A DNA stretch of 64,000 bases from Candidatus Methanomethylophilaceae archaeon (GTDB lineage Archaea; Thermoplasmatota; Thermoplasmata; Methanomassiliicoccales; Methanomethylophilaceae). The stretch covers positions 1 to 64,000 of the forward strand of contig CALUOK010000004.1 in assembly GCA_944322255.1 (NCBI GenBank). Reading direction: 5' to 3'. The number at the start of each line of letters is the position of its first letter. The stretch's first letter is position 1. A program made the translations under genes and the position numbers. Positions 10,850 through 58,835 of this stretch are shown piece by piece. The notes under the pieces are model-generated. The model worked only from the letters and a program-made list of their open reading frames with translations. It did no database searches and had not been told where the DNA came from.

Positions 10850-13168
10850 TTAAGCGTAAATCGCGTTCTGAAGCTCGCGGACCGCCGCTTCATATTGTTC
10901 CTTCCCGCCGAACGCGTTCATTATGCGGGGAAGACTGCCGAACATCCTGAAGTCCGGAAGTGTAAGGATCTTCTTGTCCGTGATGTCGTTCTCGGAGCTC
11001 TCGGCGTACTTGTCGAGCAACGTCTCAAGAATCTGCCGGGCGATTGACGAGTACTTGTCTAGAATATCCGTGCTGCGGACCCTATCCGCACGCTCTCTGC
11101 GGGTGATGAGGTCCGAGCCGTATGCGATGGAGCATAGGATGTCGAAGATGTCCAGTTCTTCGTTCGGATAGTAGTCCAGGAGGTTCTCTATCAGGACTCC
11201 TTCCGATTCGAGGTCCTCTATGACCTTCCTCTTGCTGTCCTCGGAGTTCCATTTCTTTATGAAATCCGCTATCGCGGGGCAGTCCATGCGGAGTTTCTGC
11301 TTGGAGAACTCGATGATGTTGTCCTTGGAGAAGCCCTCTGGACCATAGACGCCGATGAAATCGTCGTAGATGTCGACGTTGACCTTTCCACGGACGTAGA
11401 TCTTCTCCCTCGGAGTGGTCTTACCTCCCCCACCTCCTCCCCCGTTGCCTCCGGGTGGATTGCCATGTGGTCCGACCCAAGCGGGCGGGAAGTAGTCCCA
11501 ATCATCATCAAGGAAGTGTCTGGCGTTGTCTCTGAAGTCTACGAGGACGAAGAACCACTTGTTGCGTTGGGTGTCAAGTCTGGAACCCCTGCCGATGATC
11601 TGTTTGAACTCCGTCGCGGAGTTGACGGTCTTGTCTATCGCCACGACCTTCGTCATGAAGCAGTCCGAACCGGTTGTGAGAAGCTCCGATGTTGTCACTA
11701 TGACAGGATAGCGGGAGTTCTTGTCGTTGAAATCGTCAAGATACTCCTTTCCTGAATCCCCCGTGATCCTGACGACGTACCTGTCATCCTCCTTCATGCG
11801 CTCCGGACACAGGTCCGTCAATGCTATGCGCATGGCCTCGGCATGAGGGATGGTCCTGCAGAAGACGATGGTCTTCGCATACGGGTCGACACGGTTGACC
11901 ACTTCCAGGACCTTCCTGGCCACGGTGCGGGTGCGATCGTCGACCATGACATGGAGGTCGTAGTCCCTTCTATTGTACGGACCGTCGAGCTGGTTGCCGT
12001 TCTGATCCGTTATCCCCTCTTCGGGATACCACTCATCGTCTATCGATGTGGTCACGGATTCCAGGACGAAAGGTGCCAGGAAACCGTCGTCCACACCTTG
12101 TCTGTATGAGTACATGTAGACGGGTTTTCCGAAGTAGAGTGATGTGGAGACCTCCTTATCTTCCTTGGGAGTGGCCGTCATACCGATCTGAATGGCGCTG
12201 TCGAAGTAATCGAGGATCGCATGCCACTCCGAATCCATCTTGGCGCTGCCGCGATGACACTCATCGACGAATATCACGTCGAAATAGCTCGGGTCGAATT
12301 CCTTGTAATGGTCGGATTTGCCGTCGCTGCCCACGAACTGCTGGTAGAGTCCGAGGACTATGGAGTTCTTGTTGGAAATCTTCCTGTTGTTGAACTTCTC
12401 GATGACGTTCGAGAAGACCTTGAAATCGTTGGCGATGGTCTGGTCTGCCAGGTTGTTGCGGTCGACCAGATACAGTATCTTCCTGGCTCTTTTCGATTCC
12501 AGAAGTTTGTATATCGTCTGCATGGCGACCATGGTCTTCCCGGTACCGGTTGCCATTGCTACAAGGATGCGTTTCTGTCCTCTTTCCACGGCTTCCAGTA
12601 TACGGTTGACAGCCACCATCTGGTAATATCTGGGGGTCTTGCCACCCATCTGAAAATAGAATGGAACTGATAGTGAGGATCTTGACTCCACATCCTTACC
12701 ATCCAGGTAACGTTGCCACAACTCCTCCTCGGTCGGGAAACTCTGCATCCCGAAGCTACGTTCCTCCCCGGTGAGATAATCATACTCCTCGAAACCCAGG
12801 CCGTTGCTACTGTAGACGAACGGGGCATCGAGGTATTCATGGTATCTCTTGGCCTGTTGGAGACCGTCACTGACGGCATGTTTGGCGTCTTTTGCTTCAA
12901 CGATGGCCAGGACGATGCCACTCATGGACATCAGGTAATAGTCTGGTTTGACTATCTTCGATGAATCTATGAAGGGCTGTTGGGTTCCCTGATCTATATG
13001 GACTTGTCCTTTGGTAATGGATCTCTCCATGAAGATCTGGCTCTTGTCCCAGCCCTTTTGGATGATAGCGGGGGTGATGAAATTGAGTTTCACCTCCTCT
13101 TCCGTCATGCCCTCAATGTTCATCGAACCAAAGATTACCATGTCAACGTCCGATATCGGGTTATGCAT
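10850..13168 (-). CDS. hsdR: Type I restriction endonuclease/translocase subunit HsdR
   Basis: About 772 residues. The N-terminal nuclease domain has KPDYYL followed by VLAIVEAKDAK, a PD-(D/E)xK-type core. The superfamily 2 helicase motor has Walker A ATGTGKTM, the DECH box in FVDECHRG, and motif III TATP. Motif VI-like IGRGSRLD lies further on. A glycine stretch near residue 580 links to the C-terminal domain that binds the methyltransferase. I prefer the ATG at 13168 over an in-frame TTG at 13177. The gene follows the AbiJ-like gene by about 35 bases on the same strand. The subunit translocates DNA and cuts unmodified DNA. Confidence 0.92.
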   Translation of the reverse strand: MHNPISDVDMVIFGSMNIEGMTEEEVKLNFITPAIIQKGWDKSQIFMERSITKGQVHIDQGTQQPFIDSSKIVKPDYYLMSMSGIVLAIVEAKDAKHAVSDGLQQAKRYHEYLDAPFVYSSNGLGFEEYDYLTGEERSFGMQSFPTEEELWQRYLDGKDVESRSSLSVPFYFQMGGKTPRYYQMVAVNRILEAVERGQKRILVAMATGTGKTMVAMQTIYKLLESKRARKILYLVDRNNLADQTIANDFKVFSNVIEKFNNRKISNKNSIVLGLYQQFVGSDGKSDHYKEFDPSYFDVIFVDECHRGSAKMDSEWHAILDYFDSAIQIGMTATPKEDKEVSTSLYFGKPVYMYSYRQGVDDGFLAPFVLESVTTSIDDEWYPEEGITDQNGNQLDGPYNRRDYDLHVMVDDRTRTVARKVLEVVNRVDPYAKTIVFCRTIPHAEAMRIALTDLCPERMKEDDRYVVRITGDSGKEYLDDFNDKNSRYPVIVTTSELLTTGSDCFMTKVVAIDKTVNSATEFKQIIGRGSRLDTQRNKWFFVLVDFRDNARHFLDDDWDYFPPAWVGPHGNPPGGNGGGGGGGKTTPREKIYVRGKVNVDIYDDFIGVYGPEGFSKDNIIEFSKQKLRMDCPAIADFIKKWNSEDSKRKVIEDLESEGVLIENLLDYYPNEELDIFDILCSIAYGSDLITRRERADRVRSTDILDKYSSIARQILETLLDKYAESSENDITDKKILTLPDFRMFGSLPRIMNAFGGKEQYEAAVRELQNAIYA

Positions 13169-44016: not shown

Positions 44017-44052
44017 CAATGACAGGTCCCTTGAAGCAAGGTCAATCAACGA

Positions 44053-44060
44053 TTATATAC
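44053..44060 (+). promoter_or_regulatory. TATA box of lonB
   Basis: TTATATAC about 31-38 bases before the ATG; AGGGGGAA at 44081-44088 serves as ribosome site, so this message has a short leader. Confidence 0.55.
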
Positions 44061-44090
44061 AAAAACAAATTAAGATTCAAAGGGGGAACA

Positions 44091-46187
44091 ATGACAAAGA
44101 GAACAGATGTGAAGAGATGCGACCTCTCCGTCGAGGAATGGGCGGACAGGCAGACCTTCACAACCACCGAGCAGATCCACATCCCCGACCTGATGGCCGA
44201 CAGGGTCATCGGTCAGGAGGACGCAGTGGAGGTCATGCGCAAGGCGGCCTCCCAGAAGAGGCACGTCATGCTCATCGGGGAGCCCGGTACCGGGAAGTCC
44301 ATGCTGGCCAACTCCATGGTGGAGTACCTTCCGAAGGAGGAGCTGCAGGACATCGTGGCGTACCACAACCCCGAGGACTTCAACGAGCCCAGGATCAGGG
44401 TCTTCCCGGCGGGCAAGGGGAAGGCGGTCGTGGCCGAGCAGAAGGCCATGGCGGCGCAGCAGAAGACCCAGAAGAACACCATCTACATCTACGCGTGCCT
44501 GGGCCTGATCATACTCGGTCTCCTGGCCGGGATGCTGATGAACAACTTCACGATCACGCTGTTCGCCATCCTCGGAGCCATGCTCATATTCTTCATGTTC
44601 AGGACCCCCGGCGCCCCCAGGAACGACGTCGCGATAGTCCCGAAGGTCCTGGTGGGTCACGACGCGGGCGAGATGCCGCCGTTCGTGGACGCCACTGGAA
44701 CGCATGCCGGAGCCCTCCTCGGGGACGTCAGGCACGACCCGTTCCAGTCCGGAGGTCTCGAGACCCCGTCCCACGACAGGCTGGAGGCCGGAGCCATCCA
44801 CAAGGCCAACAAGGGCGTCCTCTACATCGACGAGATCAACCTCCTGAGGATGGAGTCCCAGCAGGCCCTGCTGACCGCCATGCAGGAGAAGAAGATGTCA
44901 ATCACCGGACAGTCCGAGCGCTCCTCCGGAGCCCTGGTCAAGTCCGAGCCCGTGCCCTGCGACTTCATCCTGGTGTGCGCCGGTAACATGGACGCCATCC
45001 AGGGAATGCACCCCGCCCTCAGGTCCAGGATCAGGGGATACGGTTACGAGGTGTACATGCGCAGCACCATGCCCGACACCGACGAGAACCGCGACAACAT
45101 CACCAGGTTCGTGGCCCAGGAGGTCAGGAAGGACGGCAAGATCCCCCACTTCGACAAGTTCGCCGTCGCCGAGATCCTCCGCGAGGCCCAGCGCCGCTCC
45201 GGGAGGAAGGGCGAGCTCACCCTCAGGATGAGGGAGCTCGGAGGTCTCATCAGGGTGTCCGGCGACATGGCAGTCCAGAGGGGCGCCAAGGTCGTCACCG
45301 CCGACGACGTCATCATGGCCAGGGGAACCGCCCGCAGCCTGGAGCAGCAGATCGCCGACAGGTACATCGAGGCCAACGAGGCCTACAAGATGTTCAGGAC
45401 CTCCGGCGAGGCCGTGGGAATGGTCAACGGACTGGCCGCCCTCAACGCCAGCTCCAACATGGCCGAGTACTCCGGCATCGTCCTGCCCATCGTGGCGGAG
45501 GTGTCCCCGTCCCAGGTCAAGAGGGCCGGGCACATCGTGGCCACCGGACAGCTGGGGACCATCGCCAAGGAGGCGGTGGAGAACATCTCCGCGGTCATCA
45601 AGAAGTACACCATGACCAACCTGTCCGACAGCGACATCCACCTCCAGTACATCGGGACCTACGACGGTGTGGAGGGGGACTCCGCGTCCATCACCATGGC
45701 GACGGTCATCATCTCCGCCCTGGAGAACATCCCCATCCGCCAGGACCTGGCCATGACCGGGTCCCTGAGCGTCAGGGGTAAGGTCCTTCCCGTCGGAGGG
45801 GTCACAGCCAAGCTGGAGGCAGCAGCGGCGTCCGGCATCAGGATGGCGCTCATCCCGGCCGACAACGCCAAGGACGTCATGATCGAGAACAAGTACTACA
45901 AGACTATGGACATCTACACCGTGGAGACCCTTCGCGACGTGTTCGAGTACGCCTTCGTGGACTGCCCGATGAAGCAGCAGTACCTGGACAAGCTCCTGCC
46001 CCTCAACAAGGACGGGATCTCTTCCGCGAAGAAGATCGAGCCCCCCATGGAGTACCACTACACCATTCGCGAGGAGCCCCCGGAGGTCCCGCCCCAGCCC
46101 CCTGTGGCCGAGACCGTTCCGGAGCCGGCCCCCGCGGCGGAGCCGGAGCACGTCGAGAACCCCTCGGCTGTGCCCGCGCCCCAGTAA
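44091..46187 (+). CDS. Archaeal membrane-bound ATP-dependent protease LonB
   Basis: Protein of 698 residues. Walker A is [13 protein letters not shown]; Walker B is LYIDEINLL. Two membrane helices sit between them (about residues 130-170), as in LonB. The Ser-Lys dyad of the Lon protease domain is S531 in EGDSAS and K574 in [10 protein letters not shown], 43 residues apart as in other Lon proteins. It is the main quality-control protease of the archaeal membrane. The C-terminal 40 residues form an unusual proline- and glutamate-rich tail ([13 protein letters not shown] and on), which may be a flexible adaptor. A hairpin follows the gene. Confidence 0.95.
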
Positions 46188-46298: not shown

Positions 46299-48860
46299 AT
46301 GAGCGGAACAGCCGTGTCCCGCACGGCCCTTCTGTTGATGGTGGCTGCCGTCCTGTGCTTCTCCCCGTGCATCGTCCCGGGGAACGGCTCGGACGGTGCG
46401 TCCGCCTGGGACGGGTCGGTGGACACATCATGGTATTCGGACGGTGGCACCTCATTCACTATAGAGACACCGTCCCAGCTTGCCGGACTGGCCCAGCTGG
46501 TCAACTCCGGGAAGTACTTCGAAGGGAAGAGGGTCGTACTCGGCTCGGACATCGATTTAGGCGGCCTGCCATGGACGCCGATAGGGTCGGGGGAGACCGT
46601 CAACTACAATCCCGTGTCCTTCAGGGGCGAGTTCGACGGCGGGTTCCACACCATCTCGGGACTCAGCGTCACCGGGTCCATCAAGAACGCCGGCCTCTTC
46701 GGTTACGTGTATCTGGCGGATGTTGCCAACCTCTCCGTTTCTGGGACGGTGGACGTCACCATCGAGGGCGGGGTCCCGTATGCAGGCGGCATCACCGGGA
46801 AGTCCTACGGATCGTTTATTGAGGACTGCCGCTCGGCGGTCTCCGTCAACGCGGTCTCCATCCGTGACAGTTCCGCGATAGCCGTGGCGGGCGGCATTGT
46901 GGGCAATTCAGCCGATGACAACATCGTGAACTGCTACAACGTCGGGACCGTGCATGCGGAGGTCCACGTGGAGAAGAGCATAGGTGGAAGTGGCATCGCC
47001 ATATCCGCCGGCATAGCCGCCGACTTGGAGCTCGCGTCCAACATCTTCAACTGCTACAGCTCGGGCATGATCACCGCCACGGCCGAGGGGCTTGGAGCGA
47101 ACAGGATGGTCGGGGCCATAATAGGGGACGCGTCGGCGGTGGACATCAGAGGATGCTACTTCCTGACAGGGACCGAGGGGCGGGACAGCTATCCGAACAT
47201 GCGCACCGCAGGTGAGTTCGGCTCCGATGGGCGGACGTTGGAGGAGATGATCATAAGGGATACCGATTCCATCATTCTCAGGGGATACGTCGTCCTGGAT
47301 CTCCTCAACCAGTACGCCGACACATTCAACGGGTACGACCTCGCCGACTGGTACGCGGGGGACGACGGCCTTCCTTGCCACAGGTACTCCGGCGGTCAGA
47401 GCGGCACGGATCCGGAGGAGCCGGTGGGTCCCGAAGAGCCCACGGACCCGGACGAGCCGACCGGCCCAGACGATCCCGGTGACGAGTTCGTTCCGGTGAC
47501 ATTCGATGTAGGGGACTTCATGTACACGACCCGCGAGGACGGGAACCTGACGCTGTCCCTGTACCGGGGTGACGACCCGGAGCCGGTGATCCCGGGCACG
47601 GTCGTACACGAGGGCGTGGAGTACAGGGTGACCGAACTGGGCGCCGGCTGCTTCCACCTCGGTGGGGAGGTGGTGACCCTCCCGGACACGTTCGACACCG
47701 TGAGTCCGTGGGCGTTCATAGACTCGGAGGTCAGGGTGATCAATCTGCCTGCATCCGTCCAGCCGATGGAGGGTCTGTACAGAACATACAACCTGCAGAC
47801 TCTGACCATCGATCCCGGCAACCCGTACATCACGGTCGTCGACAACATCATCTACTCCAAGGACATGACCGTTCTCCTGGCCTATCCGTACACGGGCCCG
47901 ACGGATGTCGTCACTATACCCGGACTCAAGAGCATCGGGAATTTTGCTTTCCGCTACACTCCAGTGGAGGTCGTCAGGATAGGTGAGGGCGTGGAGAGCA
48001 TGGGGAATATGGTCTTCATGGACTGTACGGAACTGAGGGAGGTGCACGTTCCGAGCACCTTGGACGATACACCCGATCTCGATTACACAGACGTCGACAG
48101 CATCCATGTCTCGGAGGACAACCCGCACATGAAGTCGGTCGACGGCGTCGTCTTCTCGAAGGACGGGACGGAGCTGATACGCTATCCAACAGGCAGGACA
48201 GGTTCGTACATGGTGCCGGACGGCATAACATCGCTCTGTTTCGGTTCTTTCAGACATTCGTCGCTGACGTCGCTGACGATACCCAGCACGGTGGATCGCA
48301 TCGGCGACAACATAGTCTACTCGTCCGAGGTGGAGAGCATCACCGTGGACCCGAGGAACGGGCACTACGTCTCGATCGACGGAGTCCTGTTCACAAAGGA
48401 CGGAAGCCTGCTCATCTCGTTCCCGCCGAGCAGGGGAGGCGACTACAGCATCCCATACGGCACCGAGACGATTACGGTCTCCGCCTTCTACAGATGCGAG
48501 CTCGAATCGGTGTTCATCCCGGAGACGGTCAGGACCATAGAGGATTTGGCATTCAGCTATTCCCCGAACCTGGAGAGGGTGGAGTTCGAATCATCGGATG
48601 TCGACATCGGTTTCGTGGCCTTCGAGCTCTCCTCGTACGAGGATCACACCTGCTGGATCGTCGCACCCGACGGGTTCCGTCTCCCGGCGGACAGCACGGG
48701 CAACGGGATCACCACGTTCATCTACGGCGAGAAGCCGGGCGAAGGCATAGGCGGTCTGTTCGAGGGCTCGAACAGCACCCTCGCGATAGCCGCTGCGGCC
48801 GTCGCTGCTGTCGTCGTGGTGTCCGTGGTCGCGGTCCTCATGCACAGGAGGACGGCCTGA
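46299..48860 (+). CDS. Large surface protein with GLUG-type and BspA-type leucine-rich repeats
   Basis: Protein of 853 residues. A signal peptide spans residues 8-35. The N-terminal part starts with a bacterial-surface type segment (IETPSQLAGLAQLVNSG) and GLUG-like repeats (NAGLFGYVYLADVANLSVSG, YAGGITGKS). A linker with proline-glutamate-aspartate repeats lies near residues 368-390. The C-terminal half is a BspA-type leucine-rich repeat array (LTIPSTVDRIGDN, VFIPETVRTIEDLAF). A membrane helix and a basic tail (LMHRRTA) anchor the end. Such proteins mediate adhesion to host or other cells, fitting a gut or rumen lifestyle. The repeats look bacterial in origin. Confidence 0.75.
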   Translation: MSGTAVSRTALLLMVAAVLCFSPCIVPGNGSDGASAWDGSVDTSWYSDGGTSFTIETPSQLAGLAQLVNSGKYFEGKRVVLGSDIDLGGLPWTPIGSGETVNYNPVSFRGEFDGGFHTISGLSVTGSIKNAGLFGYVYLADVANLSVSGTVDVTIEGGVPYAGGITGKSYGSFIEDCRSAVSVNAVSIRDSSAIAVAGGIVGNSADDNIVNCYNVGTVHAEVHVEKSIGGSGIAISAGIAADLELASNIFNCYSSGMITATAEGLGANRMVGAIIGDASAVDIRGCYFLTGTEGRDSYPNMRTAGEFGSDGRTLEEMIIRDTDSIILRGYVVLDLLNQYADTFNGYDLADWYAGDDGLPCHRYSGGQSGTDPEEPVGPEEPTDPDEPTGPDDPGDEFVPVTFDVGDFMYTTREDGNLTLSLYRGDDPEPVIPGTVVHEGVEYRVTELGAGCFHLGGEVVTLPDTFDTVSPWAFIDSEVRVINLPASVQPMEGLYRTYNLQTLTIDPGNPYITVVDNIIYSKDMTVLLAYPYTGPTDVVTIPGLKSIGNFAFRYTPVEVVRIGEGVESMGNMVFMDCTELREVHVPSTLDDTPDLDYTDVDSIHVSEDNPHMKSVDGVVFSKDGTELIRYPTGRTGSYMVPDGITSLCFGSFRHSSLTSLTIPSTVDRIGDNIVYSSEVESITVDPRNGHYVSIDGVLFTKDGSLLISFPPSRGGDYSIPYGTETITVSAFYRCELESVFIPETVRTIEDLAFSYSPNLERVEFESSDVDIGFVAFELSSYEDHTCWIVAPDGFRLPADSTGNGITTFIYGEKPGEGIGGLFEGSNSTLAIAAAAVAAVVVVSVVAVLMHRRTA

Positions 48861-49475: not shown

Positions 49476-49944
49476 GGCGGAGCTCCTGGCGCACCGGCTG
49501 TCCCTGAACCATCGCACTATGTGCTGCGCCGAGTCCTGCACCGGAGGTCTCATCGGCGCCGCCATGACGGACATGTCGGGGTCCTCGGAGTACTTCCTGG
49601 GAAGCGCGGTCACCTACAGCAACGAGGCCAAGGTGAAGCTCCTGGGGGTGAGGGAGCAGACCCTCATCGACCACGGGGCGGTCAGCGAGGAGACCGCCAG
49701 GGAGATGGCCCTGGGGGCGGCGAAGCTGTACGGTGCGGATTACTCTGTGGCTGTCACAGGCATAGCCGGTCCGGGAGGCGCCACCGACACCAAGCCGGTG
49801 GGGCTGGTGTACATAGCCGTCTCGGACGGCTCCCGCGTGGTCGTCTCCAAGAACAACTTCGAAGGCGGCCGCCAGCAGGTGCGCGAGAGCACCGTGAAGG
49901 AGGCGTGCGGCCTCCTGAAGGATTTCATCGAGGGGATACTTTGA
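49462..49944 (+). CDS. CinA C-terminal family NMN amidohydrolase (PncC-like)
   Basis: Protein of 160 residues from a GTG with GGGAGGT seven bases upstream. It has the CinA C-terminal hallmarks CCAESCTGGLIGAAMTD, GSAVTYSNEAKVKLLGV and VAVTGIAGPGG. Family members deamidate nicotinamide mononucleotide, recycling it to nicotinate mononucleotide. The catalytic serine and lysine positions appear kept. It overlaps nadM at its start and the ThiF-like gene at its end (TTGA), so the three are co-translated. Confidence 0.87.
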   Translation: MHPYEAELLAHRLSLNHRTMCCAESCTGGLIGAAMTDMSGSSEYFLGSAVTYSNEAKVKLLGVREQTLIDHGAVSEETAREMALGAAKLYGADYSVAVTGIAGPGGATDTKPVGLVYIAVSDGSRVVVSKNNFEGGRQQVRESTVKEACGLLKDFIEGIL

Positions 49945-50618
49945 GCAGGTTCGAGAGACAGCTCCCCATCTTCGGGGAGGAGGGCCAGATGAGGATCATG
50001 GGTGCCAAGGTGGGCATCGCCGGCTGCGGGGGTCTGGGGGTCAACGTGATCACCGACCTGGCCGAGGCCGGTGTGTGCAGGTACGTCCTCTGCGACCACG
50101 ATATCCCCGACGTGACCAACCTCAACCGCCAGTTCATCTACTACGCCGGGGACATGCGCCCCAAGTCGGTGATATCGGCTGAGTGGATACTCGCCCTGAA
50201 CCCGGCCGCGGACGTGGAGGCCATCAGCGAGCCCGTCACGGCCGAGAACCTGGACATGTTCGCCGGCTGCGACGTCATAATCGACTGCCTGGACTCCTTC
50301 GAGGCCAGGATGGCCCTGGACGATCACTCGAGGAAGCTGGGCGTGCCGCTGGTCCACGCCGGGATCTCCGGCCTGAACGGCCAGCTCTACGTCTCGGTCC
50401 CGGGGAGGACCCCGTCGCTGAGGGACGTGCTTGGTACCGCGAAGGACCAGGAGGGCCCCGTTCCCGCGGTGGGCGCTGCTGTGGCAGCCGTGGCGGGCAT
50501 GCAGGCCATGGAGGCCCTGAGGGTGATCTCCGGACTGGGCTCAGCGTGCGAGGGCGTGCTGGTCACGCTGGACCTCCAGACCATGACGATGGAGAGGATG
50601 GAGTTCGAGGCCGACTGA
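49941..50618 (+). CDS. ThiF/MoeB/HesA family adenylyltransferase
   Basis: Protein of 225 residues from a TTG that overlaps the upstream stop. The E1-like fold is shown by GIAGCGGLGVNVITDLAEAG (nucleotide-binding glycines), the arginine segment NLNRQFIY, and DCLDSFEAR. Such enzymes adenylate the C-terminus of a ubiquitin-like sulfur carrier. No CxxC zinc pairs are present, and a clear catalytic cysteine is not obvious after HAGISGLNGQ. The partner carrier is not in the window. Coupling to NAD genes is unusual and its meaning unclear. Confidence 0.78.
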   Translation: MSRFERQLPIFGEEGQMRIMGAKVGIAGCGGLGVNVITDLAEAGVCRYVLCDHDIPDVTNLNRQFIYYAGDMRPKSVISAEWILALNPAADVEAISEPVTAENLDMFAGCDVIIDCLDSFEARMALDDHSRKLGVPLVHAGISGLNGQLYVSVPGRTPSLRDVLGTAKDQEGPVPAVGAAVAAVAGMQAMEALRVISGLGSACEGVLVTLDLQTMTMERMEFEAD

Positions 50619-50733: not shown

Positions 50734-52506
50734 ATGGGAGACACCAAGCTTGACATCCAAGTGACAGATGATGGGGAGGGACGCAGGAGGATAGCCCTGA
50801 CGGGATACCTCGACTCATCCACCGCCGACGACTTCTACGACCGTGTCTCCGGGAAATGCGAGGAATGGAGGGGCGACAGGGTCGTCCTGGACCTGGAACG
50901 GCTGGAGTACATCTCGAGCGCAGGCATAAGGGCGGCGATCGGGCTCATCAGGATCCTCAGGCCAGGGACGCTCGTCCCCGTCGGGGTCAACGGCTTCGTC
51001 AGGGACGTCCTGGAATCCATAGGGCTACTTGACGACGGTGACAGCGATGAGGTGGTGGACGAAGGGTCCGGATATGATGAGGACCTCGTGGAGGTGGCCG
51101 ACCTCAGGATCCAGGCCGATACCGCGCTCATTCCGAACATACTCGACTTCGTGTGTGAACTGGCCTCCGAATACGACCTCCCGTCAGAGGACTCGCCGCG
51201 TCTGAGGCTCGCTCTGGAGGAGATCCTCGCCAGTGTGTTCTCGTACGGGTACGACAACGACCGCATTCACACGGTGGACGTGGTCGTCGCCGTCGGAGAT
51301 TCCACCCTCAGGGTGTCCGTCATGGACAAGGGGCTGCCGTACGACTACAAGACCCTGCTGGAGACCAGGTCCGCGGACAGCGCAAACATCCTCACCCACA
51401 TGCGCAACGGCCCGATGATGAGATATCTCGGGAAGGACGGCAGGGAGCAGATAGTGAGCTTCCCGATACCGCCCAGGATCAGGGATGCGCCCCGGTGCCA
51501 GGCGGAGTCGGGGCCGGTGGATTTCAGCACCATCGAGATCCACCCCATGAGGCCGGAGGAGGGTATCCAGGTGGCCCAGTGCCTGTACGACGAGTTCGGC
51601 TACACCTACGTCAACGACATCGTCTACTTCCCCGAGAGGTTCAACGAGGCCGTGGCATCGGGGACGATGATGTCCTACACCGCCGTGGCGCCGTCCGGAG
51701 AGGTGGCGGGGCATCTCACCCTCATCAAGACCCCGTTGCTGCCCGGAACCGCGGAGCTTGCCATGGGGGTCGTCTGCAAGAGGTACAGGAAGGGGTCGGT
51801 CATGTCGCGTCTGACCGAGGCGGTCATGGCCGCCGCGACGGATGATAGTCTCACGTCGATATACGCCCAGCCTGTCGGATTCCATCCCTACACCCAGAGG
51901 ACATGTGCCGCCAACGGGATGTTCCCGTGCTCGGTCAACTTCAACTACACCGGCGCCGACCTGGCGATGTCCTACTTCTCGGAACACCGCAGGCACCATG
52001 TGTTCATGGCGGTCCGGATGCTGGCTGATGTCCGCAGGACGATTCACTGTCCGCCGGACGCCAGGGATGTGGTGGACTTCGTGATCGGCGGCTGCGGTCT
52101 GGACCGTGTCCATGCGGACCCGGTGGAGCCGGAGGGCGGTAGCCGGACCATCCTGGACGTGGAGGTCCACGGCGGCTCGGCATCCGCCAGCGTGTTCGTG
52201 CGCAGTGTTGGGGAGGACGTCGCCAAGGCGATTCGTCGCGTCAACAAGTCCGTGAGGGACTCCTGCTGCGAGGTCGCGTTCATCTTTATCAACCTCCAGG
52301 ACCCGTGCGCCGCGTCCGCATACGATGCCGCTGTGGCCCTGGGGTACTTCACGGTCGGCATGTTCCCGGGGACCTCCGAGAACGACTGGCTGATCATGCA
52401 CAACACATTCATCGGCGGGATAGACTACGGCAGCTTCGTCGCAGAGGGACACTTCTCGGAACTGCTGGAGATCGTCCGCCATCATGACCCGGAGGGATAT
52501 CTGTGA
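50734..52506 (+). CDS. STAS / RsbW-like HATPase / GNAT fusion regulator
   Basis: Protein of 590 residues; GGAGGG lies 5 bases before the ATG. Residues 1-100 form a STAS domain with the phospho-acceptor region RLEYISSAGIRAAIG. Residues 120-245 resemble an anti-sigma-type HATPase (LRLALEEILASVFSYGYDND, then VMDKGLPYDY). The usual asparagine of the N box is serine, and the glycine-rich lid is absent, so it is probably not an active kinase. Residues 265-420 read as a GNAT acetyltransferase (SGEVAGHLTLI, AMGVVCKRYRKGSVMSRL). A second, weaker GNAT-like half follows. It heads a four-gene coupled operon with acyl-activating enzymes and a MATE-kinase. Confidence 0.7.
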   Translation: MGDTKLDIQVTDDGEGRRRIALTGYLDSSTADDFYDRVSGKCEEWRGDRVVLDLERLEYISSAGIRAAIGLIRILRPGTLVPVGVNGFVRDVLESIGLLDDGDSDEVVDEGSGYDEDLVEVADLRIQADTALIPNILDFVCELASEYDLPSEDSPRLRLALEEILASVFSYGYDNDRIHTVDVVVAVGDSTLRVSVMDKGLPYDYKTLLETRSADSANILTHMRNGPMMRYLGKDGREQIVSFPIPPRIRDAPRCQAESGPVDFSTIEIHPMRPEEGIQVAQCLYDEFGYTYVNDIVYFPERFNEAVASGTMMSYTAVAPSGEVAGHLTLIKTPLLPGTAELAMGVVCKRYRKGSVMSRLTEAVMAAATDDSLTSIYAQPVGFHPYTQRTCAANGMFPCSVNFNYTGADLAMSYFSEHRRHHVFMAVRMLADVRRTIHCPPDARDVVDFVIGGCGLDRVHADPVEPEGGSRTILDVEVHGGSASASVFVRSVGEDVAKAIRRVNKSVRDSCCEVAFIFINLQDPCAASAYDAAVALGYFTVGMFPGTSENDWLIMHNTFIGGIDYGSFVAEGHFSELLEIVRHHDPEGYL

Positions 52507-53672
52507 CCGATCTGCACATCAGGGGGTTGGACGACCCCGACGTGAGGCTGGAGGGGATGCCGGCGACCCAGAGGCTCTGGGCCTCCGAGGACCCCTACGA
52601 CCTGGAGGGCACCGAGGACACGTTCCTGGAGGCCGTGAGGGAGAATCTCAGGCTCCACACAGGGTGCCCGTTCTACGCCGACTGGCTGGAGCGCAACGGC
52701 GTATCGCCGGAGGACATCAGGACGATGGACGACATCGTCCGCATCCCCCCGATTCCGGCGGAGTTCTACAAGACGCATGTGGTGAAGACCGCTTCCGACG
52801 ACGACATCGTCCTAACCCTGACGTCGTCCGGCACATCCGGGCAGAAGAGTCAGATGTTCTTCGACGAGTGGTCGATCTTCGCATCGGACAAGTCCGCGGA
52901 CGTCCAGATGGGACACTACGGCCGCATAACGGACGGGCCGGTGAACTTCCTGATGTACTCCTACGAGCCCGCGGAGGGCATCAACGCCGGGACCCTGAGG
53001 ACCCGCCAGATGATGCGCAGGTACGGCAGGGAGAACGAGCTGGTGTATGCGCTCAGGTGGACGGGCTCCGGACACGAGTTCGACATGTTCGGGTGCATCG
53101 AGGCCCTCCAGAGGTTCGAGGAGCAGGGCCTTCCCGTGTACATCCTCGGTTTCCCCGCTTTCCTTTACTTCACGTTGGAGAAGATGGAGGCCATGGGCCT
53201 TCCCAAGCTGAAGCTGAACCCCTCGTCGTTCGTCTCGATGGGAGGTGGATGGAAGGGGTTCGCGGACAGGCAGGTGTCCGCGGAGGAGTTCCGCCGTTAC
53301 GCATCGGACAGGCTGGGCCTTCCGGACAGGTGTTTCCACGAGACCTATGGGGCGGTGGAGCACGGCGTGGCCTACGTGGACTGCGACGAGCATCACTTCC
53401 ACGTCCCGGTGTACGACAGGGTGATCATTCGCGACCCCGTCACGATGGAGTCGCTGGGATACGACAGGAAGGGGATACTGAACTTCGTCTCGCCGATGAA
53501 CACGGCGGTTCCGGTCACCAGTCTGATGATGGGGGACTTCGCGGTCATGCATCCTCCGGGGAGCTGCAGGTGCGGGAACCCCGCGCCCTGGATAGAGATC
53601 GCGGGCCGCGCCGGGATCAAGGCGAACAGGAGCTGCGCCATCGCCGCGGCCGAGCTCCTCAGGAGGCGGTGA
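52503..53672 (+). CDS. LuxE-like acyl-protein synthetase
   Basis: Protein of 389 residues from a GTG that overlaps the previous stop (GTGA). The ATP-binding loop is LTLTSSGTSGQKSQMFFDE (residues 99-117). Further LuxE/PaaK features are FHETYGAVEHG and the closing CRCGNPAPWIEIAGRAG. LuxE activates a fatty acid as acyl-AMP and passes the acyl group through its own cysteine to LuxC. A candidate cysteine is in the final RSCAIAAAELL. The next gene encodes a LuxC-like reductase, so this is a matched pair. No luciferase gene (luxAB) is near. Confidence 0.8.
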   Translation: MTDLHIRGLDDPDVRLEGMPATQRLWASEDPYDLEGTEDTFLEAVRENLRLHTGCPFYADWLERNGVSPEDIRTMDDIVRIPPIPAEFYKTHVVKTASDDDIVLTLTSSGTSGQKSQMFFDEWSIFASDKSADVQMGHYGRITDGPVNFLMYSYEPAEGINAGTLRTRQMMRRYGRENELVYALRWTGSGHEFDMFGCIEALQRFEEQGLPVYILGFPAFLYFTLEKMEAMGLPKLKLNPSSFVSMGGGWKGFADRQVSAEEFRRYASDRLGLPDRCFHETYGAVEHGVAYVDCDEHHFHVPVYDRVIIRDPVTMESLGYDRKGILNFVSPMNTAVPVTSLMMGDFAVMHPPGSCRCGNPAPWIEIAGRAGIKANRSCAIAAAELLRRR

Positions 53673-53673
53673 C

Positions 53674-56133
53674 ATGAGGCAGCTGTGGAGGGGCGTGCCG
53701 GTGGATTCCACGGACGGTCTGTGGGACTCGCTCGACTCCGAGATAGATTCCACCCTGAGGGGAAGGCTCAGGACGTCCGATGTTCTGGACGCATGCGAGC
53801 GCATAAGCCAGAGGATACTTTCCGGCGACACCGCCCGTTACGAGGAGGCGCTGAGGGAGGATGGCAGTCCGGACCCGGCGCCCGTGCTGGCCGCCCTGGC
53901 GGAGAACCTGTCGCGCAGGGCCCTGACCAGGAAGCTGGTCGCCGAGTTGGGGACCGAGGCCCCCATGGATCTGTCCAGGCCGGTGCTCTCCGAGCAGTGC
54001 TACGAGGCGTGGAGGCCGGTCGGCGTGGTGGTTCACATCACCGCCGGCAACTCGCCGATAGTCGCGCCGATGGCCACGGTGGAGGGCCTCCTGACAGGCA
54101 ACATCAACATAGTGAAGTGCGCCAGCAACATGGGTGCGTTCGCATCCGCGGTGCTCGCAGACATGTGCGACGGCACCCCTCTGGTCGATTTCGTCTACCT
54201 TCTGAGGGTGTCCTCCAAGGACACGGAGAGGATGAGGTTCATCCTGGACCGCGCCGACTGCGTCAGCGTCTGGGGTGGGGAGGAGGCGACCCGTGCCGTG
54301 AGGGACATGACCCCGCAGGGGACGAGGTTCGTCTCCTGGGGCCACAGGATCAGCTTTGCGTACCTCGTCCCGGACAGCGTCACTCCGGAGAGCATGCGCC
54401 TGCTGGCGGCCAGCGTCTGCAGGAACGAGCAGCAGTCCTGCTCCAGTCCACAGTGCGTCCTGGTGGACACCGACGATCCGGAGGAGGTCCGGAACGTCGC
54501 CCGCATGCTCGCGGAGGCGTTGGACGACGTCGGCCCCCGGTTCCCCCGCGTGATGCCCGACGAGGCCCAGGCGGCGGAGATCGCTTCGGTGACGCAGGTT
54601 CACAGGTGCGACTGCTTCTTCTCCGGAGGAGGGATCATAGGCGGTCCGGGGGATCCATACAGGATCCTGATATGCGACCGGACCAAGTTCATGCCCTCGC
54701 CGCTGTTCAGGACGGTGTGGCTGTCCCCGCTCAGCAGAACGGACCTGGTCCCCACTCTCCGCGGGATGAGGGGATACCTCCAGACGGCGGGCCTCGCATG
54801 CCGCCAGAGCGACCTAGCCGAGCTCTCGGACATCCTTTATTCGGCGGGGGTCGACAGGATAACCCCGCTGGATTCCATGAGCGCCAGCTACTCGGGCGAG
54901 CCTCACGACGGCGGATACGCCCTGCCGAGGTTCATGAGGCGCGTGTCCCTGAGGACCGACCTGCCGATGCACGGTGTGTTGTCGATGTCGCAGATGGAGG
55001 AGCCGGAGGACATCCACGTCTCCGGTCCGATACAGGGCAAGGCGGACTACCCTCCGGTGCCGGACGAGGGCACGAGGGTCCTGATGAAGAGCGGCGGCAC
55101 CACTGGGGATCCCGTGTACTGCAGCTACACCCAGAGGGATTTCGACAACTACATCGTCAGGCCGGCCGTCAAGGCTCTCATAGCCGCCGGTCTGGACCCG
55201 GAGAACGACGTCCTGGCGGACTTCCTGAAGTCCGGCAACCTCTACGGCGGGCTCAACTCGTTCATATCCATCACGGACGCCATGTCCGCGAAGCACCTGA
55301 GCATCGGCGGCCTGGACGACGTCCGTCTGGCCGCGGAGTACCTGGTGAGGGGGAGGGCGACGGCCGTGCTCGGCGCACCGAGCTACATCATCCGCCTGTT
55401 CACCCAGAACCACGACCTCATGAAGGGATACGGCAGGGTGAGGAAGGTGTTCTTCGGCGGGGAGATGATGACCGAGGGCCAGATGGCGTATCTCAGGGAG
55501 GAGTTCGGCGTGGAGGTCATCAGGGGCGTCCTGTACGGGGCCAACGAGACCGGCACCATGGGCTACCAGTGCGACGAGTGCGGTCACAACGTTTACCACC
55601 TGTGCGCGGACATCCAGAGGCTTGAGATCGTGAGGCAGGATTCCGACGAGCCGGTCGGCGAGGGGGAGGCCGGGAGGATGCTCTTCACCGGGTTCCTCAG
55701 GGAGAACGGCCGCACGGAGAGGTACGACATAGGCGACCTCGGAAGATGGGTCCTCGGGGAGTGCCCCTGCGGAAGGAGGGAGCCCAGGTTCGAGCTCCTA
55801 GGCAGGCACGGCGACGTCGTGCGCATTGGAGGGACCTTCTTCAACTACCACCGCATCGCGGCGGTCCTCGCCCACAGGTTCGGATACAGCGGCCTCATGC
55901 AGATCGTACTGGGCACCGACGGGCTGACTGAGACGATGTCCATCCGCGTGCAGGAGACAGAAGCATCCACGGAAGGCGCCCTCGACGTCCTGGTGGAGGA
56001 GTACGACTCCTTCGCCAAGGTCGTTCCCACCGGTCTTGTCAGGGTCACGGTGGACCGCATCCCGGATTCGGATTTCATCATTAACGACAAGAGCGTCAAG
56101 CTCAGGACCATCGTGGACGGAAGGGAGAGATGA
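53674..56133 (+). CDS. LuxC-like acyl-CoA reductase fused to PaaK-type AMP-forming ligase
   Basis: Protein of 819 residues. Residues 1-400 match LuxC, an aldehyde-dehydrogenase-fold fatty acyl reductase: GVVVHITAGNSPIVAPMATVEGLLTG, then C256 in NEQQSCSSPQCVLVDT as the expected thioester cysteine. Residues 430-819 form a phenylacetate-CoA ligase or LuxE-like adenylating domain (VLMKSGGTTGDPVYCSYTQRDF, GVLYGANETGTMGYQCDECGH, GRMLFTGF, IGGTFFN). The fusion could activate an acyl substrate and reduce it to an aldehyde. The ATG is one base after the luxE-like stop, preceded by AGGAGG. I know no characterised protein of this architecture. Confidence 0.75.
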   Translation: MRQLWRGVPVDSTDGLWDSLDSEIDSTLRGRLRTSDVLDACERISQRILSGDTARYEEALREDGSPDPAPVLAALAENLSRRALTRKLVAELGTEAPMDLSRPVLSEQCYEAWRPVGVVVHITAGNSPIVAPMATVEGLLTGNINIVKCASNMGAFASAVLADMCDGTPLVDFVYLLRVSSKDTERMRFILDRADCVSVWGGEEATRAVRDMTPQGTRFVSWGHRISFAYLVPDSVTPESMRLLAASVCRNEQQSCSSPQCVLVDTDDPEEVRNVARMLAEALDDVGPRFPRVMPDEAQAAEIASVTQVHRCDCFFSGGGIIGGPGDPYRILICDRTKFMPSPLFRTVWLSPLSRTDLVPTLRGMRGYLQTAGLACRQSDLAELSDILYSAGVDRITPLDSMSASYSGEPHDGGYALPRFMRRVSLRTDLPMHGVLSMSQMEEPEDIHVSGPIQGKADYPPVPDEGTRVLMKSGGTTGDPVYCSYTQRDFDNYIVRPAVKALIAAGLDPENDVLADFLKSGNLYGGLNSFISITDAMSAKHLSIGGLDDVRLAAEYLVRGRATAVLGAPSYIIRLFTQNHDLMKGYGRVRKVFFGGEMMTEGQMAYLREEFGVEVIRGVLYGANETGTMGYQCDECGHNVYHLCADIQRLEIVRQDSDEPVGEGEAGRMLFTGFLRENGRTERYDIGDLGRWVLGECPCGRREPRFELLGRHGDVVRIGGTFFNYHRIAAVLAHRFGYSGLMQIVLGTDGLTETMSIRVQETEASTEGALDVLVEEYDSFAKVVPTGLVRVTVDRIPDSDFIINDKSVKLRTIVDGRER

Positions 56134-57857
56134 CGCAGAGGAGCCCGTATCTGGTGAACAGGGCGTTCCGCTCCTATCTGGCAGCCACGGTGATGTCCAC
56201 CATGGCTGTCTCCTTCGGCACCATGCTGGGAAGCATCGTGGTCGGCAACGTCATGGGGCCCACCGCACTGGGCGCGGTCAACGTGATGATGCCGATCATC
56301 CAGCTGTTGGCGGCCCTCAACGCGCTCATCAACATCGGAGGTGCCACCGTGATGGCGGTGAACGTCGGCAGGGGCAGGACGGACGAGGTCCGCGGGATCT
56401 TCACGAAGTCCATGATGATGTCCCTGGCGGTGTCGGTCGCCATAGCGGTGGTCGGCGTCCTGTTCATCGACGAGATAATGTCCATGCTGTGCACGGACGA
56501 CGAGCTCCTGGGTATGGCGAGGGAGTACGGCATCATGGTGTTCGCCATGAGTCCCCTGTTTGTTATCATGCCCGGACTGGGTGCTTACGTCAGGACCGAC
56601 AACTCCCCCAGGCTGGCCATGGCGTCGTTCATCGCCATGAACGCCACCGACCTCGTGCTGTCGTTCGTCTTCATGGAGTACCTTGACATGGGTCTGACCG
56701 GCTTCGCTCTGGGGACCGGCATCGGATACGTGGTCGGTCTGGCGGTCCTCATCCCCCACTTCATCGGGAGAGGGAGGGCCATCGGCATCGGGTGGGGGTC
56801 GGTCGGATGCTCCGAGATACTGACCATGGGGGCCCCCACCGCCCTCGGCATGGGGATGATCATGGTGAACATGCTGGGGATCAACCTGCTGGTGATGGAC
56901 AACCTGGGGTCGGACGGCATGGCCATCCGCTCGGTGTGCACCAACGTGCAGATGATCTCATCCATATTCGTCTCGGGGATCTCCCAGACGCTGCAGCCGG
57001 TCGGCGGCTCCCTGTACGGGTCCGAGGACCTCACGGGGATGAGGATGGTCGTCGGCATCGCGACCAGGCACCAGCTTGCTGTTGCCGCTGCCATAACCCT
57101 GATCACCCTGGCGGTGCCGACGGTGTTCCTGACCCTGTACGGCGTAACCGACCCGTCCATCCACGATGTGGCGGTGGGTGACCTGCGTCTGTTCGCCCCG
57201 TACATCCTGTTCCAGGCGGCGAACTACTTCATCATGGTGATCTACCAGGTGTTCGGGCATCGTCCCATCGCGCTGTCCATATCAGTGATGGAGTGCGCGT
57301 TCATCCTCGTGGCGGCATACGCCCTCACGCCGCTCAGCACCGATTTCATCTGGCTGTCTTTCGTCATCGGAGAATCCCTGGTCACGGTCGTAATCGTCGT
57401 CATGTCGCTGGTCATCAGGCACCGCTGTCCGGAGTTCTCCGGCGTCTCCCTGCTCAGGAAGCCCAGCGGAGAGGTCATGGACACATCCATGTCCGGCGAC
57501 GGTTCCGAGCTGTCGCAGGTGCTGGACGAGACCTCGGCGTTCCTGGAGGAGGTTGGTGTCGACAGGCCGCTGGCCGAGAGGGTGCGGCTCTGCTGCGAGG
57601 AGACGCTGCTGAACGTGGTGGACCACGGTCTCCGCCGGGACCCCGACAGGTTCGTGGACCTGATGGTGAGGGTCGACGGAGACGGGATCAAGGTCACCAT
57701 CAGGGACGACGGTCCGATCTTCGATCCAGTGAAGTACGACGAGGATACTGGATACGGTCTGATGATCGTCAGAGGCGAGTGCAGCACCCTGAACTACGCC
57801 AGGAGCATGGACCAGAACAACGTGTTCATAGGGTTCGACGCGGTCTGCCGGGGATGA
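56130..57857 (+). CDS. MATE transporter fused to an RsbW-like serine kinase domain
   Basis: Protein of 575 residues, overlapping the upstream gene in ATGA. Residues 1-440 make 12 hydrophobic helices of a MATE-family efflux carrier (LGSIVVGNVMGPTALGAVNVMMP, ISGISQTLQPV-type repeats). Residues 460-575 are a GHKL/HATPase domain with a full N box (CCEETLLNVVDHG), G1 (RDDGPIFDP) and G2 (GYGLMIVRGE). This domain therefore looks active and faces the cytoplasm. It could phosphorylate the STAS domain of the first gene and tie transport to that switch. MATE carriers export small organic cations or drugs; the cargo here is unknown. Confidence 0.78.
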   Translation: MTQRSPYLVNRAFRSYLAATVMSTMAVSFGTMLGSIVVGNVMGPTALGAVNVMMPIIQLLAALNALINIGGATVMAVNVGRGRTDEVRGIFTKSMMMSLAVSVAIAVVGVLFIDEIMSMLCTDDELLGMAREYGIMVFAMSPLFVIMPGLGAYVRTDNSPRLAMASFIAMNATDLVLSFVFMEYLDMGLTGFALGTGIGYVVGLAVLIPHFIGRGRAIGIGWGSVGCSEILTMGAPTALGMGMIMVNMLGINLLVMDNLGSDGMAIRSVCTNVQMISSIFVSGISQTLQPVGGSLYGSEDLTGMRMVVGIATRHQLAVAAAITLITLAVPTVFLTLYGVTDPSIHDVAVGDLRLFAPYILFQAANYFIMVIYQVFGHRPIALSISVMECAFILVAAYALTPLSTDFIWLSFVIGESLVTVVIVVMSLVIRHRCPEFSGVSLLRKPSGEVMDTSMSGDGSELSQVLDETSAFLEEVGVDRPLAERVRLCCEETLLNVVDHGLRRDPDRFVDLMVRVDGDGIKVTIRDDGPIFDPVKYDEDTGYGLMIVRGECSTLNYARSMDQNNVFIGFDAVCRG

Positions 57858-57932
57858 CCCGTCCTCCCTACACGGGTCGCTCCCGGAGGTAGGGACACAG
57901 TTCAAAAATACGTGAGTATGTTAGCATGGTCC

Positions 57933-58835
57933 ATGAAGCATCTGATGACCGGGAAGGTCAAGGAAGTCTACGAGGTCGACGCGGACACGCTGGAGTTCGC
58001 GTACACCGACAACATCTCCGTTTTCGACAAGATCATCCCCTCGAAGATCCCCCACAAGGGCGAGACGCTCTGCAGGACCGCCAAGTACTGGTTCGGCAAG
58101 CTGAACGAGGCCGGCATCAACAACCACTACATCAGCGAGCCCTCCAAGGACAGGATGAGGGTCAAGAGGGTCGACGTCATCCGCGACTACAGCAAGATCG
58201 ACGGCACCACCACCAACTACCTGATCCCCCTGGAGGTCATCTGCAGGTACTACGCCGCCGGATCCCTCCTGGACAGGCTCAAGTCCGGGAAGGTCAAGCC
58301 GGAGGACCTGGGATTCCCCGCGGGACACGAGGTCAAGAGAGGGGAGAAGCTCCCGAAGCCCTTCGTGGAGTGCACCACCAAGCTGGAGGAGCACGACGAG
58401 AACCTGACCGAGGCCGAGGCCAAGGAGATGGCCGGGCTCTCCGACGCCGAGTACCAGGAGATCGTGGACACCGTTCTCAGGATCGACCAGATCATCGCGG
58501 AGGAGGCCGGCAAGCGCGGGCTCATCCACTGCGACGGAAAGAAGGAGTTCGGATACGACAAGGAGAGGAAGCTCATGGTCGTCGACACCTTCGGAACCCT
58601 GGACGAGGACCGCTGGTGGGACGCCGAGGAGTACGCCAAGGGCAACATCGTGGAGCTCTCCAAGGAGTTCGTCAGGCAGTACTACCGCGAGACCGGGTAC
58701 CACGACGAGCTCTACGCCGCCAGGGACGCCGGGAAGCCCGAGCCGGACATACCCGCACTCCCCCAGGACATCATCGACCGCGTGAGCAAGCTGTACGTCG
58801 ACATGTACGAGCGCATCACCGGCGAGAAGTTCTGA
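57933..58835 (+). CDS. purC: Phosphoribosylaminoimidazole-succinocarboxamide synthase
   Basis: Protein of 300 residues (ATG 57933; other in-frame starts at 57912 and 57918). SAICAR synthase features are GKVKEVYEVD at the start, FDKIIPSKIPHKG, the substrate motif PLEVICRYYAAGSL and VDTFGTLDEDRWW. It joins aspartate to CAIR in purine synthesis. A TATA-like AAAAATACG at 57904-57912 is 21-29 bases upstream, favouring the 57933 start. The gene lies just after the acyl/MATE operon but has its own promoter and a strong terminator. Confidence 0.93.
   Translation: MKHLMTGKVKEVYEVDADTLEFAYTDNISVFDKIIPSKIPHKGETLCRTAKYWFGKLNEAGINNHYISEPSKDRMRVKRVDVIRDYSKIDGTTTNYLIPLEVICRYYAAGSLLDRLKSGKVKPEDLGFPAGHEVKRGEKLPKPFVECTTKLEEHDENLTEAEAKEMAGLSDAEYQEIVDTVLRIDQIIAEEAGKRGLIHCDGKKEFGYDKERKLMVVDTFGTLDEDRWWDAEEYAKGNIVELSKEFVRQYYRETGYHDELYAARDAGKPEPDIPALPQDIIDRVSKLYVDMYERITGEKF

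Follow-up and report, generated by a model that had tools for sequence, protein, structure and literature searches.

An accessory operon of gut methanogens joins LuxE- and LuxC-type enzymes to a MATE transporter with a predicted STAS kinase

Introduction

The gut methanogen Methanobrevibacter ruminantium M1 carries a gene cluster (mru0066–mru0071) in which genes for serine phosphatases, an anti-sigma factor antagonist, and MatE surround that of a nonribosomal peptide synthetase (NRPS); the cluster is possibly of bacterial origin, and a role in sensing, in regulation, and in exporting a small product has been proposed for it (PMC2812497). Here, we describe an operon for which such switch-linked synthetase clusters are the closest known kind: four genes in a 64,000-nucleotide stretch (hereafter, the window) from a Candidatus Methanomethylophilaceae archaeon (GenBank assembly GCA_944322255.1, contig CALUOK010000004.1, positions 1 to 64,000), encoding, in order, a STAS–HATPase–GNAT protein, a LuxE-type acyl-protein synthetase, a LuxC reductase fused to a PaaK-type ligase, and a MATE transporter with a C-terminal HATPase. 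As far as the published description allows comparison, both gene sets come from gut methanogens and place a MatE exporter and an anti-sigma antagonist beside a carboxylate-activating synthetase, but the window operon has LuxE and LuxC-PaaK and no NRPS domains (by Pfam), and no GNAT-HATPase protein is described from M. ruminantium. A first-pass annotation of the window had recognized no described system of this composition. That statement holds for the exact gene set, in that searches of the literature on LuxC/LuxE in gut bacteria, SpoIIE in the order Methanomassiliicoccales, and archaeal partner switching returned nothing describing this system; it needs amending insofar as the M. ruminantium cluster is a described relative.

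Individual parts of the operon have counterparts elsewhere. The LuxC-LuxE reductase of luminous bacteria (PDB 7xc6) likewise combines both enzymes, with catalytic cysteines that align to those of the window proteins, but the window LuxC is fused to a PaaK-type ligase, both window proteins fall far below the equivalog cut-offs, and in an archaeal host long-chain fatty acids are an improbable natural substrate. Neither a luxAB luciferase nor a LuxD-like gene is detected by Pfam in the operon or in the genes that flank it, which makes a bioluminescence operon unlikely. Adjacent LuxE-LuxC pairs scattered over Clostridia and Bacteroidia (L070, L072-L078, L082) show the same adjacency and catalytic residues but stand alone, lacking the PaaK fusion, the MATE-HATPase, the GNAT-HATPase, and the switch. 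On the regulatory side, the RsbU/RsbV/RsbW and SpoIIE/SpoIIAA/SpoIIAB switches share with the window operon a STAS domain (here with a predicted phosphoserine) and a HATPase kinase with canonical boxes, together with a PP2C phosphatase in most of the operon's relatives; unlike in these switches, the predicted kinase of the window is fused to MATE, its STAS domain shares a polypeptide with a GNAT domain and a HATPase that is degenerate, and a sigma factor is not expected in the archaeal host. SypE/SypA of Vibrio fischeri (PMC10120452, PMC8256260) also places a STAS protein under a joined serine kinase/phosphatase protein, with a target other than a known sigma factor, and archaeal relatives of the window operon, like SypE, carry PP2C fused to HATPase; SypE differs in being a response regulator tied to polysaccharide genes, with neither a transporter fusion nor biosynthetic enzymes of the LuxE/LuxC-PaaK type. 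Given that it has no known sigma target and that the window locus lacks the phosphatase, the operon resembles an Rsb/SpoII or SypE/SypA switch rather than being an established member of either.

Results

The four genes constitute a real, conserved unit whose co-occurrence is far beyond chance. They lie on one strand, with a GGAGGG ribosome-binding site immediately 5′ of gene 1; genes 1 and 2 overlap at GTGA, genes 2 and 3 are separated by a single base, and genes 3 and 4 overlap at ATGA (coordinates are given in Table 1). A profile search recovered the LuxC-PaaK fusion from 6 of 147 genomes of the order, representing three genera and two families, and the arrangement is the same at all six archaeal loci: the HATPase-GNAT gene precedes LuxE, which lies directly upstream of LuxC-PaaK, and the MATE-HATPase gene follows directly downstream. 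The coupled genes and the conserved unit read at first pass are thereby borne out, with the partners of LuxC-PaaK co-occurring in six of six archaeal neighborhoods as well as in bacteria. The contig scan across the whole collection used two peptide patterns only and returned 6 loci; our distribution figures therefore rest on sampled searches and are lower bounds.

Chance assembly of the genes is ruled out by their identical order in six genomes, one of which (G760) is a single contig.

Most of the archaeal loci contain additional switch components. At five of the six, the genes are accompanied by a membrane SpoIIE/PP2C phosphatase (upstream in four, convergent in G760), which in most cases has a C-terminal HATPase of its own, and the same five have a separate STAS gene; only in the window genome is STAS fused to the HATPase-GNAT protein. 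In one of these genomes (G040), an extra, weakly matching AMP-binding (PaaK-like) ligase is encoded directly upstream of the phosphatase (L035, 2528-3973, + strand). In another (G005), the HATPase-GNAT gene is frameshifted (L032, about 10891-10900), through either decay or an assembly error.

Conserved residues point to the transporter as the kinase of this switch. The serine of the STAS motif ISSAG (Ser62) is invariant in an alignment of the six archaeal loci and is, by its predicted correspondence to SypA Ser56, a candidate phosphorylation site. The HATPase of the MATE protein has canonical boxes (E490/E491-N495-H499, D526-D527-G, and G541-x-G543-L); the fusion itself is conserved at the six archaeal loci and in one Bacteroidales genome, and its N, G1, and G2 boxes are invariant columns across these sequences (n = 7). 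In gene 1, the alignment shows Ser167 at the position of the N-box Asn and loss of the glycine-rich G2 box; this Asn is replaced in the GNAT-fused HATPase at four of the six archaeal loci (by Ser, Gly, Gln, and Gly), and the G2 box is broken. Lacking the N-box Asn and an intact G2 box, the gene 1 HATPase is probably a binding module and not an active kinase, so the predicted STAS kinase is the transporter itself. Its 11 to 12 predicted helices, taken with the usual cytosolic N-terminus, would leave the HATPase on the cytosolic side.

The C-terminal 320 residues of the gene 1 protein yield no Pfam matches, although three orthologues (G027, G040, and G168) pass the Acetyltransf_1 cut-off. An AlphaFold model (mean predicted local distance difference test score of 70, higher across this region) matches GNAT enzymes in the PDB over residues ~265-590, with a Foldseek E value of 4e-8 and TM-scores to the target mostly of ~0.7 to 0.8, consistent with a GNAT fold.

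Both Lux-type enzymes retain their predicted catalytic residues. Cys378 of LuxE aligns with the C-terminal acyl-carrying cysteine of 7xc6_E and is invariant in 13 homologues, and the LuxC motif QQSCSSPQ aligns with QQACFSTQ of 7xc6_A, its Cys256 being invariant in 15 homologues. The PaaK half retains the motifs KSGGTTG, YGANETG, and YDIGDLG, as well as an invariant Lys809.

Profile or fold searches thus substantiate all domains called in the first-pass annotation, including GNAT, and the intact boxes bear out, at the level of motifs, its placement of the kinase on the MATE protein. Its overall interpretation is accordingly retained for the unit, the domains, and the kinase; what it overlooked is the SpoIIE-type phosphatase present at five of the six loci, the degeneracy of the gene 1 HATPase, and the occurrence of the same switch and exporter with GH3 and NRPS enzymes, as follows.

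A search of the order for MATE-HATPase proteins returned two further strong fusions (G772 and G771), and STAS adjoins the fusion gene at eight of the nine loci found. The G772 locus, from another genus of the family (G772:C90, L156, 1936-7539, + strand), encodes in succession a GH3 acyl-amido synthetase, STAS, MATE-HATPase, and PP2C-HATPase. A member of the window's own genus, G030, encodes an NRPS (C-A-T-C-A-T) that ends in a reductase-type domain; genes for PP2C-HATPase and STAS come next (G030:C1:963000-980000, L103, 251-10159, + strand). From these loci and that of M. ruminantium, it emerges that in gut methanogens the STAS/PP2C/MATE switch recurs beside exporters and carboxylate-activating synthetases, LuxE and LuxC-PaaK being one plug-in of this recurring chassis. 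Judging from their families, both LuxC and the terminal reductase of the NRPS would release aldehydes. At a separate locus of G030 (G030:C1:435000-452000, L102, 2600-9153, + strand), a C39-peptidase ABC exporter pair is followed by STAS and PP2C-HATPase, that is, a peptide exporter carries the same STAS/PP2C switch.

The enzymes also occur in bacteria. A Bacteroidales metagenome-assembled genome (MAG), G061, encodes LuxE, LuxC-PaaK, and MATE-HATPase (55% identity), the last on a contig that also holds LolA and FtsK genes, and a Eubacteriales MAG, G060, encodes GNAT, LuxE, and LuxC-PaaK (54% identity) on contigs so short that its host assignment is less sure. A more distant LuxC-PaaK fusion (about 33%) exists in three other Clostridia, the best assembled of which (G168) encodes, one after another, LuxE, LuxC-PaaK, MATE, a GNAT protein, and an additional PaaK-type ligase. 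In trees of LuxE and of LuxC, the sequences from Eubacteriales and Bacteroidales share a clade with the archaeal ones, some inner forks being weak, which is the pattern that transfer would give; we read the cluster as horizontally mobile.

Within the window genome (1.88 Mb, 96% complete), the operon is an accessory insertion, with thiF on one side and purC on the other; G014, the closest relative, has these two genes side by side and lacks the operon. Its G+C content equals that of its flanks, so its arrival was not very recent or its source was a similar genome. Misbinning or contamination of the window is ruled out by the position of the operon within a 131-kb contig, the synteny of its flanks with the closest relative, and the equal G+C content. 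Elsewhere in the window, a large, repetitive, predicted surface protein (46299-48860, + strand) is encoded beside a Lon-type protease gene (44019-46187).

Table 1. Coordinates of the operon, its domains and predicted catalytic residues, and its flanking genes in the window (Pfam calls are matches above curated cut-offs)
Feature	Position	Strand	Basis or remark
ThiF/MoeB-like gene (left flank)	49941..50618	+	Adjoins purC in relatives without the operon
Gene 1, STAS–HATPase_c_2–GNAT-like fusion, 590 amino acids	50734..52506	+	Open reading frame, Pfam
STAS domain, residues ~12-100	50767..51033	+	Pfam STAS, 35.9 bits
Predicted phospho-acceptor Ser62 in ISSAG, STAS domain	codon 50917-50919	+	Analogy with SypA Ser56
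HATPase_c_2 domain of gene 1, residues ~119-245	51088..51468	+	Pfam, 39.2 bits
GNAT-like acyltransferase region, residues ~265-586	51526..52491	+	AlphaFold and Foldseek
Gene 2, LuxE-type acyl-protein synthetase, GTG start, 389 amino acids	52503..53672	+	Pfam LuxE, 105 bits
Gene 3, LuxC–PaaK-like ligase fusion, 819 amino acids	53674..56133	+	Pfam; PDB sequence matches 7xc6_A, 4r1l_A
LuxC acyl-thioester reductase domain	53767..54942	+	PF05893, about 280-282 bits
LuxC predicted nucleophile Cys256	codon 54439-54441	+	Alignment to 7xc6_A
PaaK-type adenylate-forming ligase domain	55042..56118	+	Pfam AMP-binding, 34 bits; 4r1l, 9s3l
Gene 4, MATE transporter with C-terminal HATPase (predicted kinase), 575 amino acids	56130..57857	+	Pfam
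MATE transporter domain, 11-12 predicted membrane helices	56154..57434	+	Pfam MatE, 83 bits; hydropathy
RsbW-like HATPase, predicted STAS kinase	57483..57839	+	Pfam HATPase_c_2, 53.6 bits
purC (right flank)	57912..58835	+	Directly after thiF in nearest relative G014

Discussion

We favor, at a probability of roughly 55%, the reading that the operon specifies a small-molecule pathway, probably toward an aldehyde or an aldehyde-derived compound, whose product is exported by the MATE protein and whose biosynthesis and export are set jointly by STAS phosphorylation (through the transporter-borne kinase) and PP2C dephosphorylation. The individual reactions, the product, and the direction of the switch we infer as follows. 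LuxE would activate a carboxylic acid with ATP and hold it as a thioester on Cys378, from which the LuxC half would take the acyl group onto Cys256 for NAD(P)H-dependent reduction to an aldehyde; the PaaK-type domain joined to LuxC would turn an acid into an adenylate or coenzyme A (CoA) ester, perhaps feeding LuxC or the GNAT domain, and the latter could acylate an amine. Export of the product would fall to the MATE protein, and the HATPase on its cytosolic end would phosphorylate Ser62 of STAS, the phosphate being stripped by SpoIIE/PP2C, a neighboring gene in most relatives and perhaps one encoded elsewhere in the window genome. The phosphorylation state of STAS would choose its partner, the transporter or the HATPase-GNAT protein, and biosynthesis and export would be switched on together, at the protein level and with no sigma factor.

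Several observations weigh against this scheme. The operon of the window genome has no phosphatase gene beside it, which means that its switch is either altered or served by a distant phosphatase; another contig of this genome (G000:C11:12000-30000, L097, 6794-11355) encodes one PP2C, a STAS protein, and an RsbW-like HATPase whose boxes are canonical. Motif A of the GNAT region is altered, reading RKGSVM in the window protein versus the CoA-binding motif Q/RxxGxG/A (the aligned position in G168 reads RGLGLF). The NCBIfam equivalog cut-offs that define the fatty acid enzymes are missed widely by both LuxE (80.7 of 550 bits) and LuxC (65.8 of 750 bits). Lastly, the G168 locus has neither STAS nor PP2C, and the HATPase on its MATE protein is degenerate, indicating that LuxE/LuxC-PaaK chemistry can exist without the switch.

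Other explanations fit parts of these data. Acyl groups or aldehydes made by LuxE and LuxC-PaaK might instead decorate a protein, lipid, or glycan, with MATE flipping a lipid-linked or small precursor. LuxE is, after all, named an acyl-protein synthetase and acylates itself, and a literature search lists papers on flagellin glycosylation islands that contain LuxE/LuxC terms (PMC4875605, PMC7874193); yet the partners that recur at these loci are an exporter and a switch, and no glycosyltransferase, flagellar, or lipid gene does so, leaving protein or surface modification unlikely. Similarly unlikely is that the switch only hitchhikes, its kinase and STAS domain controlling a separate DNA- or polymerase-level regulator and not the enzymes or exporter. 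The targets of the classical Rsb/SpoII switches are indeed sigma factors, and the window genome has its other PP2C/HATPase/STAS set, but archaea, as is well established, lack sigma factors, the exporter physically incorporates the kinase, STAS in the window genome is fused to the GNAT protein, and no regulator gene recurs at the archaeal loci. Also unlikely is a detoxification or carbon-use cassette that reduces gut organic acids (e.g., aryl acids) to aldehydes or alcohols, or acts on imported acids, with MATE expelling a toxic compound: PaaK-type relatives do act on phenylacetate, MATE relatives are drug exporters, and the setting is the gut, but reducing acids to aldehydes is costly and usually raises toxicity, simple efflux would not ordinarily call for a phospho-switch that has dedicated kinase domains, and related chassis adjoin NRPS and GH3 synthetases.

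Returning to the switch-controlled pathway, we tentatively extend it to a broader proposal, which we regard as possible and short of probable: gut methanogens and gut bacteria may share a modular, mobile chassis, composed of a kinase-bearing MATE protein, STAS, and SpoIIE, into which LuxE/LuxC-PaaK, GH3, or reductase-ending NRPS enzymes are fitted, the transporter reporting export and setting biosynthesis through STAS phosphorylation, a form of archaeal partner switching that would be post-translational and sigma-free.

The operon ties a bacterial-type phosphorylation switch, as predicted from its domains, to a transporter and to nonluminous LuxC/LuxE chemistry in gut methanogens. The MATE-HATPase fusion offers a handle for locating more such clusters. 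If the favored reading is true, the operon would be a concrete example of sigma-independent partner switching and, in methane-making gut archaea that are hardly known as small-molecule producers, would point to undiscovered archaeal signaling or competition metabolites in the gut.

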